A stretch of DNA of 40,704 nucleotides from IMG/VR virus record IMGVR_UViG_3300045119_000046, positions 1 through 40,704 of that record; one strand, written 5' to 3'. This stretch comes from a virus. Shown here in pieces: positions 20,014 to 26,356 of the stretch; within the stretch, counting starts at the first letter, position 1; each line of letters starts with the position of its first letter. The position numbers and the translations under genes are program-made. Below the pieces are notes generated by a model. It ran no database searches. It worked only from the letters and a program-made list of their open reading frames with translations, and was not told where the DNA came from.

Positions 20014-20484
20014 CTACGCACGCATAGCCTGTTGTGAAGCATAGACCGCCAGCAGTGCCGCCTCGGCTCGGCCGGCGTCTTTCTTGCGCGCAAAGTGGTC
20101 TGCGCACGCCGGAAACATCCGCAGCGCCATGGCGCGGCATTCTTCCTTGCCGTCGGCGCCGCCGCCTACCTTCATGGCTTTCTTCCAGCTGCCGGGCGTC
20201 ACCAGCACGGTTGGAATATTCAGCAAGGCAACGGCCACGCGAGCGGCCGTGTAGGCTGAAGCAAACCGCCACGCCTGGCGCACGCCATCGCGCGGCATTG
20301 GACCAACACGCTCGATGTAGGCAATGTCCGGTTTCCATGTCTTGAGCAGGCTGAAGAGCTGGTGATAGTTGATCTCGCCATCGACCACCGGCATGTCGTA
20401 GACACCGACATGATGTGGGGTTTCGGGATGGTAGAGTGCCAGGGCGCCGGTGAGGCCTGGATCGATGGCGAGGATGATGGTCAT
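20014..20484 (-). CDS. RuvC-like Holliday junction resolvase
   Basis: A 156-residue RNase H-fold nuclease from ATG 20484, in an ATGA overlap with the methyltransferase stop. The first acidic residue is in ILAIDPGLTGALALY (Asp 7). Then come DIAYIERVGPMPRDGVRQAW (Glu) and a C-terminal helix HFARKKDAGRAEAALLA with the closing acidic pair. It would resolve branched DNA before packaging, or act in recombination. Length is typical for phage RuvC-like proteins. The longer upstream frame lies inside the methyltransferase and is rejected. Confidence 0.85.
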   Translation of the reverse strand: MTIILAIDPGLTGALALYHPETPHHVGVYDMPVVDGEINYHQLFSLLKTWKPDIAYIERVGPMPRDGVRQAWRFASAYTAARVAVALLNIPTVLVTPGSWKKAMKVGGGADGKEECRAMALRMFPACADHFARKKDAGRAEAALLAVYASQQAMRA

Positions 20485-21188
20485 GTGATGTTTCTGCGAA
20501 ACGTCGCGGCGATGTAGCGCGACAGCGGCAGCGGGATCTTCGCGATCATGGCGGATGCGGCCTTGCGCTGCGGTGATCTGGAACCAAAGCTGGCCGATGT
20601 TCCGCCCACACCACCCTTGCGCGCTTCCGCGAACCAGTCGCCGCCCTGCTTGCGGCCAGCTTCCACAATCCAGTGCGGCGATACTTCGCCGGTCTGCTTG
20701 AACCTGTTCCGGTCCTGGCCCGATCCCTTTATTCCCCTGAACGCAATCGGCATCAGCGCCGGCACGTCGCCCCACAGATAGAACGAGCCGTAATTCCAGC
20801 GGGCACGGCCCACCCATGGCTGCGCGCCGCGGACGTTCTCGACAATCATCGGCACGTGCCGGCCGGCCGCCTCGCAGGCTTCGCGCTGGATGCGAAAGCA
20901 GGCCTCGAACAGTGCGTTATCCGGCGGCGGCAACGCCTTGGCGCGCTTCCACGGCATCGCCCGGTAGCTGTAGCCCTGGCACGGTGGCGAGGCGACGATC
21001 AGCGTGGCATCCTTGAATTGCGAGCCGTGCAGGGACAGCACATCCTGGATGACGAGCTTGCCCGGATAGCGGTGATCGCCGTATTCGTGCCGCTCGATGT
21101 CGAACCCGATGACGTCATAGCCCTCCGCTAGCAAACCCTCGGTCCAGCCGCCGAGGCCGCAGAAAAGATCGATGGCGCGCACAATCAT
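20481..21188 (-). CDS. C5-cytosine DNA methyltransferase
   Basis: A 235-residue enzyme from ATG 21188. It has motif I AIDLFCGLGGWTEGLLAEGY (SAM binding), motif IV LIVASPPCQGYSY with the catalytic Cys, motif VI MIVENVRGAQPWVG, a QDRNRF segment, and a C-terminal KAASAMIAKIPLPLSRYIA like motifs IX-X. It is short for the family (usually over 300), so the target recognition region is small. No partner restriction enzyme lies nearby, so it is an orphan, likely for protection from host restriction or for marking phage DNA. It overlaps the resolvase start and lies four bases after gcrA. Confidence 0.88.
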   Translation of the reverse strand: MIVRAIDLFCGLGGWTEGLLAEGYDVIGFDIERHEYGDHRYPGKLVIQDVLSLHGSQFKDATLIVASPPCQGYSYRAMPWKRAKALPPPDNALFEACFRIQREACEAAGRHVPMIVENVRGAQPWVGRARWNYGSFYLWGDVPALMPIAFRGIKGSGQDRNRFKQTGEVSPHWIVEAGRKQGGDWFAEARKGGVGGTSASFGSRSPQRKAASAMIAKIPLPLSRYIAATFRRNIT

Positions 21189-21192
21189 TTTG

Positions 21193-21651
21193 TTATGACC
21201 AGGTTTTACTTGGAGAATTATAGGCCATCCTGCTGTGTGTCTTGCAGAACGGACAGCCGATCGGCGTTGGATGGCCGCAGTACAGGTATGGCGGATAATC
21301 CTCCACCTCGCCCAGCGGCCATTTGCAGTCACCCTCGCGGGTTTCGTAAATGGTCAGGTTGAATGTGCCATTGATCTGCCTGCGCGCCGGCTTGGGCGGG
21401 ATGGGGGCGTCGACGCGGATCTTGATCATCCTGGGCTTCTCCCCTCCCTTGCGCGGTATGCCCTCGTTGCTGCGCATCGGAAAGCCTAATCGTCTGGCTT
21501 TTCCGATGCAGGCGTTGCGTGTCAACTCAATGTCAAACGCCGCGGACATCTCCGCGGCGATCCTGGCGAACGACAGTGGCGGCTGCTGGCGATGCAGCTT
21601 GTTGAACTGTTTAACCATCTCCGCGGTCCATTCGTGAACCTTGTCGTTCAC
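21193..21651 (-). CDS. gcrA: GcrA-like cell-cycle regulator
   Basis: A 152-residue homologue of GcrA, the alphaproteobacterial sigma-70 cofactor that activates promoters with methylated GANTC sites. It shows the N-terminal DNA-binding part (EWTAEMVKQFNKLH, SFARIAAEMSAAF, LTRNACIGKARRLGF) and the C-terminal zinc-like motif GDCKWPLGEVEDYPPYLYCG then GCPFCKTHSRMAY. It uses GTG 21651, which overlaps the previous stop (GTGA) and retains the conserved Trp-Thr. In the phage it may redirect host RNA polymerase or cell-cycle genes. No CcrM-type adenine methylase is encoded here, so host methylation would be relied on. Confidence 0.85.
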   Translation of the reverse strand: MNDKVHEWTAEMVKQFNKLHRQQPPLSFARIAAEMSAAFDIELTRNACIGKARRLGFPMRSNEGIPRKGGEKPRMIKIRVDAPIPPKPARRQINGTFNLTIYETREGDCKWPLGEVEDYPPYLYCGHPTPIGCPFCKTHSRMAYNSPSKTWS

Positions 21652-21902
21652 TTGGCTGCCCCGTTGAGGAACTTGTTGTGGGCATCGAGCACGCTCTTGC
21701 CGAAGTCGCGCACCTTCTCGTCCATCTCGTTAAGCAGTTTCTCGTGCTCGCCGAGCTGGGCAACGATATGCTCCGCCAGCGTGGTGACCGATGCCAGCAG
21801 ATTGTTTGCCTCGACCACCCGATCCTCGCCGGCCTTCTTTAAGGTAGCGACGATCTGCTCGCCGAGCTTGGCGAAGTCTGCTTTTTCCCTGACATTGTTC
21901 AT
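21648..21902 (-). CDS. Small helical protein of unknown function
   Basis: An 84-residue protein from ATG 21902, in ATGA overlap with the previous stop and GTGA overlap with gcrA. It reads MNNVREKADFAKLGEQIVAT, DRVVEANNLLASVTTLAEHI and LLNEMDEKVRDFGKSVLDAH, probably a helical hairpin or coiled coil. No family recognised. Tight coupling with gcrA makes a regulatory accessory role possible but unproven. Confidence 0.6.
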   Translation of the reverse strand: MNNVREKADFAKLGEQIVATLKKAGEDRVVEANNLLASVTTLAEHIVAQLGEHEKLLNEMDEKVRDFGKSVLDAHNKFLNGAAK

Positions 21903-22243
21903 CGCTTGCACCTCCAGCTTGACCCGGTGATCACCTTGTGCATGCCGTGCCTGGTGCAGACATCGCCAGCCGGCTTCGCCACCGGCGTGGGCACGGGGGC
22001 CGGAATTTCAACCGTCATTTTCTCGGTCTTGACCACCACTGAGAACGGCTTTTCCTTCGACAGGTCGATCATCTTGTCGTAGCCAACCATCGAGTTGCCG
22101 TTGAGCTGGTAGGCGCGCTTCAGTGCCCAGTTGATGACTTCGCGATCGGGAATGTCCGGGAAGAAATACGCGGTCTGGTCGTCTGTCTCCTGAGCGACCG
22201 CTGGCGAGGCCAGCAGTGCTGCCAGCAATATCAATCGTTTCAC
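21899..22243 (-). CDS. Secreted or periplasmic small protein with signal peptide
   Basis: A 114-residue protein from GTG 22243. The signal peptide MKRLILLAALLASPAVAQ is clear, probably cut after AVA. The mature part has DIPDREVINWALKRAYQLNG, a Pro-rich linker (IPAPVPTPVAKPAG), and a C-terminal motif DVCTRHGMHKVITGSSWRCK with two Cys that may form a disulfide. I recall this kind of C-terminus in Bradyrhizobium proteins, unnamed. An early secreted protein may alter the envelope, for example for superinfection exclusion; that is inference. Ribosome site GGAGAGAAG lies inside the end of the preceding gene. Confidence 0.65.
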   Translation of the reverse strand: MKRLILLAALLASPAVAQETDDQTAYFFPDIPDREVINWALKRAYQLNGNSMVGYDKMIDLSKEKPFSVVVKTEKMTVEIPAPVPTPVAKPAGDVCTRHGMHKVITGSSWRCKR

Positions 22244-23892: not shown

Positions 23893-23963
23893 GCAGTTGC
23901 GGCACGCCATGGAACAGGCGTAGGCTAGGCGCATTGCTTCATCACATTTACCTGGAGCCTCCC

Positions 23964-24641
23964 ATGAAAAAACTGCTGATTGCCACAGCCGCCCTGCTCG
24001 CGACTGCCGGACTGGCGCGCGCCGACGTCATCGTCGACAACCACCTGAGCGGTACTGGCGACAATGTTATCTTCAATTCGATTAACGGCGATCTGGCACT
24101 CGCCACACTCAACAGTCCGAACCACCTCGACGTCGTTCGCTTCCAGGACTTGACTGGCAGCACCACGTTCGGCGCGTCAGCCAACGGTAACGACATCAAG
24201 ATTGTCGGCACCCAGAACCTGTTCATTCAGGTGTTCGACCCGACCAACATCACCGTAGTCGGCACCACCACGCAGGTGTTCTCCATCACCGGCACCGGCG
24301 ACGTCACGGCCTTCGTGCAGGCCAACGATCAGTTCGGCAACGCCGAGGCCATTCAGGTCTTTGACCTTACCACGCTGTTCGGCGCGCTCGGGCCGGGGCA
24401 GAACGGGTTCACCTTCAATGCGATCAACGGCGAGACGATGACTTCGCTGCGGCTGCTCGACGTCAACGGCACCATCACCGATTTCGAGCATTACCGGATC
24501 GACGTTGCGCTGGCCGTTCCCGCCCCCATCGTCGGTGCCGGTATTCCCGGCCTGCTGGCCGCCGCCTTCGGCCTGTTCATGCTGAACCGCTACCGCCGCA
24601 ACAAGCGCGACGGCGGTGCCTTCCATGCTGCGATGGCTTAA
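23964..24641 (+). CDS. Secreted protein with PEP-CTERM-like C-terminal sorting signal
   Basis: A 225-residue protein from ATG 23964 with GGAG in front. It has a classic signal peptide (MKKLLIATAALLATAGLARA). The mature part is an all-beta, Gly/Asn/Thr-rich domain (NHLSGTGDNVIFNSINGD, NLFIQVFDPTNITVVGTTTQ, NGFTFNAINGETMTSLRL). The end has VPAPIVGAGIPGL, a membrane helix LLAAAFGLFMLN, and basic RYRRNKR. This tripartite tail matches PEP-CTERM-like signals processed by exosortase in envelope or exopolysaccharide systems. It may coat the host surface during infection. The upstream frame from 23832 overlaps the previous gene and is rejected. Confidence 0.75.
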   Translation: MKKLLIATAALLATAGLARADVIVDNHLSGTGDNVIFNSINGDLALATLNSPNHLDVVRFQDLTGSTTFGASANGNDIKIVGTQNLFIQVFDPTNITVVGTTTQVFSITGTGDVTAFVQANDQFGNAEAIQVFDLTTLFGALGPGQNGFTFNAINGETMTSLRLLDVNGTITDFEHYRIDVALAVPAPIVGAGIPGLLAAAFGLFMLNRYRRNKRDGGAFHAAMA

Positions 24642-24867
24642 ACGAAAACTTCGCCCGCCTCTCCCGGCGGGCGAACCCTATCTGAGCGACCCGACGCCGG
24701 AGAACCTCTACCAGCTCGTCAAGCGACGCTGCCCGGTGTGTGGCCTGTCGCCGCCGGAGTGGTTGGAGGTCGAAAGGCCCGACGACGCGGTCTGCGCCCG
24801 CTGCGCCGCGCACTACAAGGTGCCGCAGCCGGGCAACAAGGCGTGGCGCGTCAATCGGATGCGCTAG
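24625..24867 (+). CDS. Small zinc-ribbon protein
   Basis: An 80-residue protein from ATG 24625 (a GTG at 24616 would add three residues). Two Cys pairs, CPVCG and CARC, spaced by about 19 residues form a likely zinc ribbon, after a basic N-terminus (MLRWLKRKLRPPLPAGEPY). It overlaps the end of the secreted-protein gene by 17 bases, and its own end overlaps the amidase gene tail to tail. The plus-strand island ends here. Function unknown. Confidence 0.6.
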   Translation: MLRWLKRKLRPPLPAGEPYLSDPTPENLYQLVKRRCPVCGLSPPEWLEVERPDDAVCARCAAHYKVPQPGNKAWRVNRMR

Positions 24868-25813
24868 GGTGCGGGAAGATCACTTCTACCTCGTCGTCCG
24901 TCTCCAGTCCGAGGTCGGCCAGCAGGCCGGGCGACAGATCCGCGATCCGGCCTGTATCCTCATGCGGCCCCCAATCGGCCGGGAAGGCCGCCAGCTCCTG
25001 CCCTGTCGATGGCACCCGCACCAGCGCCACGCCTTCCGCCAGCATGCTCTTGGACGTGATGTCGTAATTCCAGCGGCAGGCGATGTAGTGGACGTAAGGA
25101 TTGAGGCGCCGCGCCAGACCTGAGCTGCCGGACGGCTGGTAGGGCAGGAATAAATGCTGGTTGTCGGCGGTGATGTCGAAGTGCAGCGCCAGCCCCTCGT
25201 CCGACGTGACGCCAATGTCCTCCGGCCCGCCGAACTCCGAGCAGGCGCCGATCGCGTGGAACAGCGCCTCGCCGCCCGGCGGCTCGAAGATGTCCTCGCC
25301 ATCCTCGCCACCGGCTACGTCAGCGAGACTGTCGCAGATGTCCTCGAAGTTTTCGCTATAGATCTCGACGTCGGCGAGACTATCCACAAAGCAAATTTCC
25401 AGAAGCACGCACGGTTCTGACGTTTGCGACAGCACGAAAAGGTCGGGGCGATGCTTGGCACCCCTGTCTATGAAGCCGCAAATGGCGATCGCCGCCGATA
25501 GTTTTGCGGCCAGCGCCTGCTGGCTGTAGTAGAGCACCTCGGTGCCCATTGGCTTGTCGGTTTCGACATAGGCGTTGAAATGGACGCTGATGTCGAGATC
25601 CCGCGCGTGGCTGTTGTGCCAGTCGACGATCCTGTTCAGGTTCTCATTCTGGCTGGTCGAGACCGTGTCGTGGTAGGTCTTTACGTCGTGGCCGCGATCG
25701 CGCAGGTCGATCGCGAGCTGGTTGACGACGCGGGTGGCCTCGGTGACTTCGTTGAGGATGCCGCTGGCGCCCTGGCACTCGGTGGAGTGGCCCGATGAAA
25801 TACATATCCTCAT
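24851..25813 (-). CDS. Endolysin: N-acetylmuramoyl-L-alanine amidase with DPBB-like tail
   Basis: A 320-residue lysis enzyme. The N-terminal 180 residues are an Amidase_3 domain: zinc ligands His 9 (ICISSGHS), Glu 22 (NEVTEATR) and His 78 (DISVHFNAY), and catalytic Glu near 139 (VLLEICFVDS). An acidic linker follows (AGGEDGEDIFEPPGGE). Residues about 235-318 resemble a double-psi beta barrel, with VRVPSTGQELAAFPADWG, TGRIADLSPGLLADLGL and TDDEVEVIF, as in RlpA-like proteins. No signal peptide, so a holin is needed. ATG 25813 overlaps the previous stop (TAATG). Confidence 0.85.
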   Translation of the reverse strand: MRICISSGHSTECQGASGILNEVTEATRVVNQLAIDLRDRGHDVKTYHDTVSTSQNENLNRIVDWHNSHARDLDISVHFNAYVETDKPMGTEVLYYSQQALAAKLSAAIAICGFIDRGAKHRPDLFVLSQTSEPCVLLEICFVDSLADVEIYSENFEDICDSLADVAGGEDGEDIFEPPGGEALFHAIGACSEFGGPEDIGVTSDEGLALHFDITADNQHLFLPYQPSGSSGLARRLNPYVHYIACRWNYDITSKSMLAEGVALVRVPSTGQELAAFPADWGPHEDTGRIADLSPGLLADLGLETDDEVEVIFPHPSASD

Positions 25814-26134: not shown

Positions 26135-26356
26135 TCAATGCCCGAGGCTGTGAAAGGGATTGGAGCCGCCACCTACCAGGACGGTAATCAGTGCGATCAA
26201 CGCCAGTAGCAGAACAATCACCCAGATCCCCTTTTTGACCTGTTCGGGGATCGGGAAGATGAAACTCTCGATCACCCAGATCGCGAGGTAGATCACGCCT
26301 GCAAGGACAATAAGTCCGATCAGGAACCAGAGCACAGAGATTGCCATGCCAGCCAT
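26135..26356 (-). CDS. Two-helix membrane protein, holin candidate
   Basis: A 73-residue protein from ATG 26356 with the strong ribosome site AGGAGG. It has two hydrophobic helices (about residues 5-30, ISVLWFLIGLIVLAGVIYLA, and 42-62, GIWVIVLLLALIALITVLVG) split by a short polar loop with PIPEQVKK. Size and topology fit class II holins, which let the endolysin reach the wall. It lies between the fibre-region genes and the amidase. Holin role is inferred; a plain membrane protein is possible. Confidence 0.6.
   Translation of the reverse strand: MAGMAISVLWFLIGLIVLAGVIYLAIWVIESFIFPIPEQVKKGIWVIVLLLALIALITVLVGGGSNPFHSLGH

Follow-up and report, generated by a model that had tools for sequence, protein, structure and literature searches.

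NCBI 'choice-of-anchor' domains are known from cellular proteins in which one ectodomain is joined to different C-terminal sorting signals. Phage proteins that exclude superinfection or mask receptors at the host surface, such as Llp of phage T5, are outer-membrane lipoproteins. Sorting by exosortase has been described for the PEP-CTERM/exosortase system (EpsH, XrtA; Haft et al. 2006, PMC1569441), in which substrates with a signal peptide end in a motif, a transmembrane (TM) helix and a basic cluster, several diverse substrates occur per host genome together with an exopolysaccharide (EPS) locus, and the enzyme has a Cys, NxxR and HxxxG triad and PrsT as a neighbour. The phage gene described here and the Bradyrhizobium genomes with the same tail share these traits with the PEP-CTERM system. 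However, its motif is VP[GA]PxxGAGxPG and not PEP, substrates are phage-encoded, and the enzyme is detected by TIGR04178 only (near the cutoff) and not by PF09721. In contrast to choice-of-anchor proteins, the tagged proteins are phage-encoded, and the choice-of-anchor models are unmatched. The likeness to Llp-type lipoproteins is confined to the proposed role as a phage-encoded protein on the host surface, the proposed route here being the host exosortase. No report of phage-encoded exosortase substrates was found in open-licence papers, and this widespread phage gene class is apparently so far unreported.

The window, by which we mean the whole stretch of DNA analysed, is an entire virus record of 40,704 bases encoding a portal, major head protein, terminase, DNA primase/polymerase, tail fibre and endolysin, with no integrase among the window proteins scanned. 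Its terminase is nearest to those of Rhizobium phage RHph_I3_18 (56%) and Bradyrhizobium phage ppBjS10J-1 (55%), which makes a rhizobial host probable; judging from the terminase and the sorting-tail class, this soil phage probably infects Bradyrhizobium-like bacteria. The gene under study lies on the strand opposite to the structural genes (Table 1). Terminator-like hairpins were as numerous in the scan as in shuffled sequence, so the hairpin that follows this gene is weak.

Table 1. Features of the sorting-tail gene and its surroundings in the window, with host loci of the WW tail subtype in the last row.
Feature	Position	Strand	Basis
CDS, 225 aa, exported phage protein ending in an exosortase-type sorting tail	23964..24641	+	ATG start; relatives; dN/dS
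GGAG ribosome-binding site, 6 nt 5' of ATG	23954..23957	+	sequence reading
Signal peptide, residues 1-20, AxA|D cleavage, lipobox absent	23964..24023	+	sequence; A18, A20 and D21 conserved
Ectodomain family A, residues 21-184, beta-sandwich, exchangeable module	24024..24515	+	AF2 pLDDT mostly >90
Sorting tail, residues 185-225: VPAPIVGAGIPG motif, TM helix, basic cluster, short end	24516..24638	+	sequence, alignments, AF2
Basic cluster RYRRNKR, predicted cytoplasmic stop	24588..24608	+	sequence
Overlapping downstream ORF, 83 aa, CPVC..CARC zinc-ribbon-like	24616..24867	+	conserved with locus; cluster near tail genes in related loci
Terminator-like hairpin, end of leftward endolysin transcript, right after tail gene	24650..24675	-	weak
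Endolysin (phrog_435), convergent neighbour of tail gene	24851..25813	-	E 2e-48
73-aa two-TM holin-like protein	26135..26356	-	sequence reading; PHROG: no significant match
WW-subtype tail loci of G003, G690	L133, L135, L137, L139, L141, L293		

At its N-terminus, MKKLLIATAALLATAGLARA|D, the encoded protein has a type-I signal peptide that contains an AxA site but no lipobox cysteine, as called from the sequence and from the conservation of AxA|D in the alignment. At the other end, VPAPIVGAGIPG-LLAAAFGLFMLN-RYRRNKR occupies residues 185-215 and is followed by DGGAFHAAMA. An AlphaFold2 model built with 68 homologues (mean pLDDT 87.5) contains a beta-sandwich at residues 22-181 and a C-terminal helix at residues 194-217, such that the sorting tail is tripartite, with motif, helix and basic cluster in that order. 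The layout that the first-pass annotation had read, of a signal peptide, a beta-rich domain and a motif/helix/RYRRNKR tail, is confirmed. Comparison of the window gene with four relatives yielded dN/dS values of 0.14-0.26, and values among those relatives were 0.08-0.20, indicating that the gene is maintained. The window protein hit no family in Pfam and NCBIfam (up to an E-value of 10) or in PHROG, and matched no curated sorting-signal model. Its tail has VPAP in place of PEP; as neither the PEP motif nor a curated-model match is found, the tail is classed as PEP-CTERM-like and not as PEP-CTERM sensu stricto (TIGR02595 / PF07589).

Relatives of the ectodomain, termed family A, numbered 44 in IMG/VR with a single-sequence query and 100 with an alignment query, and share the conserved blocks GTGDNVIF, NGNDIKI, VFSLKGTG and DFEHYRID. 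Their C-terminal ends fall into three classes: VP[GA]PxxGAGxPG (the majority, including the window), PEPxxWA and VPLPA. When 35 members were searched with sorting-signal models, six matched PEPxxWA-CTERM (NF035944, best 4.1e-9) and PEP-CTERM (PF07589, 6.5e-7), and one matched VPLPA-CTERM (TIGR03370, 5.4e-5); the window's own tail belongs to neither of these types. One ectodomain is thus joined to interchangeable sorting signals, and this strongly supports a sorting function for the window tail as well. No relative of the ectodomain was found in bacterial genomes by a pattern scan of 84,980 species, and a family-A profile run over 398 genomes of the order matched a single host protein, in its tail only. 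By tblastn, none of five family members searched had a match among isolated phages (INPHARED), nor did the window protein among plasmids (PLSDB). By these comparisons the ectodomain is probably phage-specific, in what would be a modular surface-display gene that probably uses a host sorting enzyme.

A scan of IMG/VR with the tail only returned 154 virus contigs. Among the 80 contigs kept, approximately one quarter bear the window's ectodomain. The ectodomains of the remainder are unrelated to it, prominent among them a CIICG...NDGPDSFF family and a FVDVGxxGFGN family. The 12-residue motif preceding the TM helix is conserved over these unrelated ectodomains, in phage and host proteins alike. 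Tagged genes are located near RecT/RecE, DNA helicase, DNA polymerase, integrase, terminase, head or endolysin genes, and these varied contexts indicate that they are tied neither to the structural nor to the lysis genes. In phages with two tagged genes, both were found to end in a single tail type in 18 of 19 distinct pairs, a result that 100,000 permutations never equalled. Such agreement would follow if each tail had to fit a single host enzyme, and duplication or gene conversion inside a phage could contribute. The presence of such tags in more than 100 uncultured phages, on varied and sometimes exchanged ectodomains, suggests phage proteins that would dress the surface of the infected cell. 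Separately, an ORF for a probable membrane protein of about 80 residues, without a PHROG match, has the orientation of the tagged gene and lies some 500 bases downstream of it at L114:1566-1808 and in 28 other loci.

A comparison of the window with locus L236 reveals homology over 23916-24035, ending just past the signal peptide, followed by an ectodomain without any homology; homology resumes at 24512, four bases before the tail, and continues through the endolysin at 83%. L236 carries a family-B ectodomain on the window's tail at a homologous, syntenic locus. By sequence alignment, the middle of the gene is replaced exactly between a retained signal peptide and a retained tail in these related phages. 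L230 has the window's tail on another family-B variant, and a separate set (L074/L084/L110 versus L217) repeats the A-to-B ectodomain pattern. Several further same-tail pairs, among them L084/L120, L205/L232, L175/L241 and L240/L245, appear to represent divergence within one family and were not counted as swaps.

Bacterial genomes also contain the tail. Two Bradyrhizobium genomes and one alphaproteobacterial MAG together gave nine loci, in which diverse proteins with signal peptides bear it, and in one of these loci (L046) the tail is identical to the consensus query over 29 of 29 residues. A strict tail pattern occurs in 4 of 149 Bradyrhizobium genomes, with 7, 6, 3 and 1 matches respectively, and the reversed pattern gave none, placing the motif beyond chance. 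The translated host matches have the same architecture as the phage proteins. Several diverse proteins per host genome thus bear one tail, as is the case for PEP-CTERM-type substrates. In three of the four tail-bearing Bradyrhizobium genomes the tail genes lie inside an EPS locus, which encodes a sugar transferase (TIGR03023) and an exopolysaccharide-transport/Wzc-like protein (TIGR01005), both above cutoff, as well as glycosyltransferases, export lipoproteins and an asparagine synthase. That the real motif is looser than the one searched is suggested by two other variants of the tail in this Bradyrhizobium locus (VPGPTVGAGAASF... at L163:8942-9571 and VPLGNPTLPSVV... at L165:15877-16599).

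In the three tail-bearing genomes found first, TIGR02602 and PF09721 gave no convincing exosortase; indeed, the classical exosortase/EpsH (PF09721) is present in 19 of the 149 Bradyrhizobium genomes and in none of the four with tails. All four, however, contain a divergent exosortase that scores above the TIGR04178 cutoff in the genome search, and in three of them it shares the EPS locus with the tail genes, at a distance of about 30-40 kb. The copy in genome G127 (G127:C1:1139956-1140831, corresponding to L268:9849-10835) scored 24.1 bits against a cutoff of 23, and two divergent homologues fell just below it at 22.7 and 21.0. Across nine homologues C235, N278VxR281 and H296 are invariant, and the HxxxG glycine is found in all except L263, in agreement with the triad of Haft et al. 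2006 (PMC1569441). The gene adjoins one for PrsT (TIGR02917, 350 against a cutoff of 312), and an EPS-transport protein is encoded next but one downstream. Homologues occur in 20 of the 149 genomes, including all four with tails (Fisher p 2.5e-4), and the four closest copies (100, 96, 87 and 57% identity) are exactly those of the tail-bearing genomes. Of the 16 other carriers, ten have a small PGP[IV]xGAG-hydrophobic-basic ORF near the enzyme, with none in reversed or shuffled controls. These short ORFs (L274, L275, L277, L279-L284 and L286) consist of a signal-like start and an APGP[IV]xGAG-TM-basic tail with little else, and on sequence grounds might be dedicated minimal substrates. The exosortase recognised by TIGR04178 only, together with the VPGPxxGAG or APGPxxGAG tail, apparently constitutes an un-modelled enzyme/signal pair.

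In a 399-genome family sample, the exosortase profile was found in 16 genomes and the strict tail pattern in four, with both only in G001. The tail match in G614 was checked and is spurious. G003 (five pattern matches) and G690 (one) have real tails of a WW subtype, GLLGWWRRRxK. No exosortase was found in either of these fragmented MAGs, with three family models in the case of G003; the gene may have been missed in these incomplete assemblies, or a different enzyme possibly serves the WW subtype. The first-pass annotation had proposed an exosortase-type substrate as phage cargo, to be checked by profile search and by looking for exosortase in hosts. Both lines support it, through the sorting-signal matches of the family-A relatives and through the exosortase of tail-bearing Bradyrhizobium, so that neither of the outcomes it had named as refuting came about. 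It called such a gene unusual in a phage without integrase. No integrase was detected in this phage, but the gene is no rarity: it belongs to a widespread class in uncultured soil phages, some with an integrase nearby and others with none detected. Its further suggestion, that the protein may modify the host surface or EPS, draws some slight favour from a weakly carbohydrate-binding-module-like fold.

We consider it likely that the gene encodes a phage surface-display protein that exploits the host exosortase. The protein would be exported by Sec and retained in the inner membrane by the TM helix and basic end, after which the host exosortase would cut at the VPxPxxGAG motif and pass the ectodomain outside, where it would probably associate with EPS. 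More speculatively, the ectodomain may bind a surface glycan or EPS. Foldseek matches to the PDB are weak (E 1e-4 to 5e-3, TM up to ~0.44), the best being flagellar sheath protein FlaA1 and CBM29, ahead of CBM8 and CBM4; equally weak are the tail-fibre and CenC-like domains matched among viral structures. The three CBM families have the beta-sandwich in common with the window ectodomain, at E 3e-4 to 5e-3, TM ~0.4 and 6-12% identity; with the best TM of ~0.44 below the criterion of >0.5 and no Pfam match, this falls short of demonstrating CBM membership. A glycan-binding beta-sandwich is hence a weak, model-based lead and not a result. For a carbohydrate-binding protein at an EPS-bearing surface, the simplest role would be receptor masking or a change of EPS, and masking of a receptor or of EPS is our leading guess. 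Masking might exclude further phages or spare progeny from adsorption to debris; alternatively, EPS might be altered. Phages may also diversify the ectodomain by cassette exchange, which would suit an arms race.

Retention in the membrane does not of itself require sorting, as any TM helix with a basic end would hold the protein there, and the window tail matches no curated model. The product could accordingly be an ordinary bitopic protein with an uncleaved anchor and a periplasmic ectodomain, acting for example in superinfection exclusion at DNA entry. However, a plain anchor needs neither motif nor enzyme, whereas the 12-residue motif is conserved over unrelated phage and host ectodomains, is replaced by other known sorting motifs as opposed to random TM segments, and co-occurs with exosortase; we regard a simple anchor as unlikely. 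Unimolecular spanins (u-spanins) also resemble the layout of N-terminal signal, beta domain and C-terminal TM helix. The convergent neighbour of the gene is an endolysin, and about 20 loci have an opposite-strand relative of this endolysin close to the tail gene, as might suit a spanin. Yet no family-A member has a lipobox cysteine near the cleavage site and hence an outer-membrane anchor, and on this ground the u-spanin identity was rejected. It is rendered very improbable, too, by the tail types that match PEPxxWA and VPLPA sorting signals, by the use of this tail on secreted proteins of the hosts themselves, and by the many relatives whose neighbours are recombination, DNA polymerase or integrase genes.

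The identity of phage and host tails, and the orientation opposite to the structural genes, might also reflect chance pickup of a host gene, as a moron or an assembly chimera without a phage role. This is extremely unlikely given that the ectodomain is absent in both bacterial-genome tests (84,980 species; 398 genomes) and has 100 relatives on virus contigs, and that the locus is syntenic among related phages with dN/dS of 0.08-0.26. Surface display by way of the host exosortase would mean that phages borrow an entire host sorting pathway and remodel the exterior of the infected cell. It would provide a testable handle on the purpose of PEP-CTERM-type proteins, and likely a new layer of phage-phage competition in soil. 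A broader scheme, which we offer tentatively and as somewhat less than an even prospect, is that alphaproteobacterial soil phages possess a modular display system in which at least three unrelated ectodomain families serve as cassettes between a constant signal peptide and a constant, exosortase-matched tail, are displayed on the surface or EPS of the infected cell and control the access of rival phages. Exosortase would then be a phage route for proteins outside the cell, and the exchange a form of phage-driven surface variation. The un-modelled sorting signal and divergent Bradyrhizobium exosortase form a pair that could be converted into annotation models.

Elsewhere in the window, an ORF at 21193-21651 (minus strand) resembles by eye a GcrA-like cell-cycle regulator, with a weak PHROG match of unknown function. 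It adjoins a DNA methyltransferase at 20481-21332 (minus strand), a pairing expected in alphaproteobacterial phages. A second small exported protein, encoded at 21899-22243 (minus strand), has a signal peptide and a C-terminal CxxH...C but no sorting tail, and relatives of it occur in about ten related loci.
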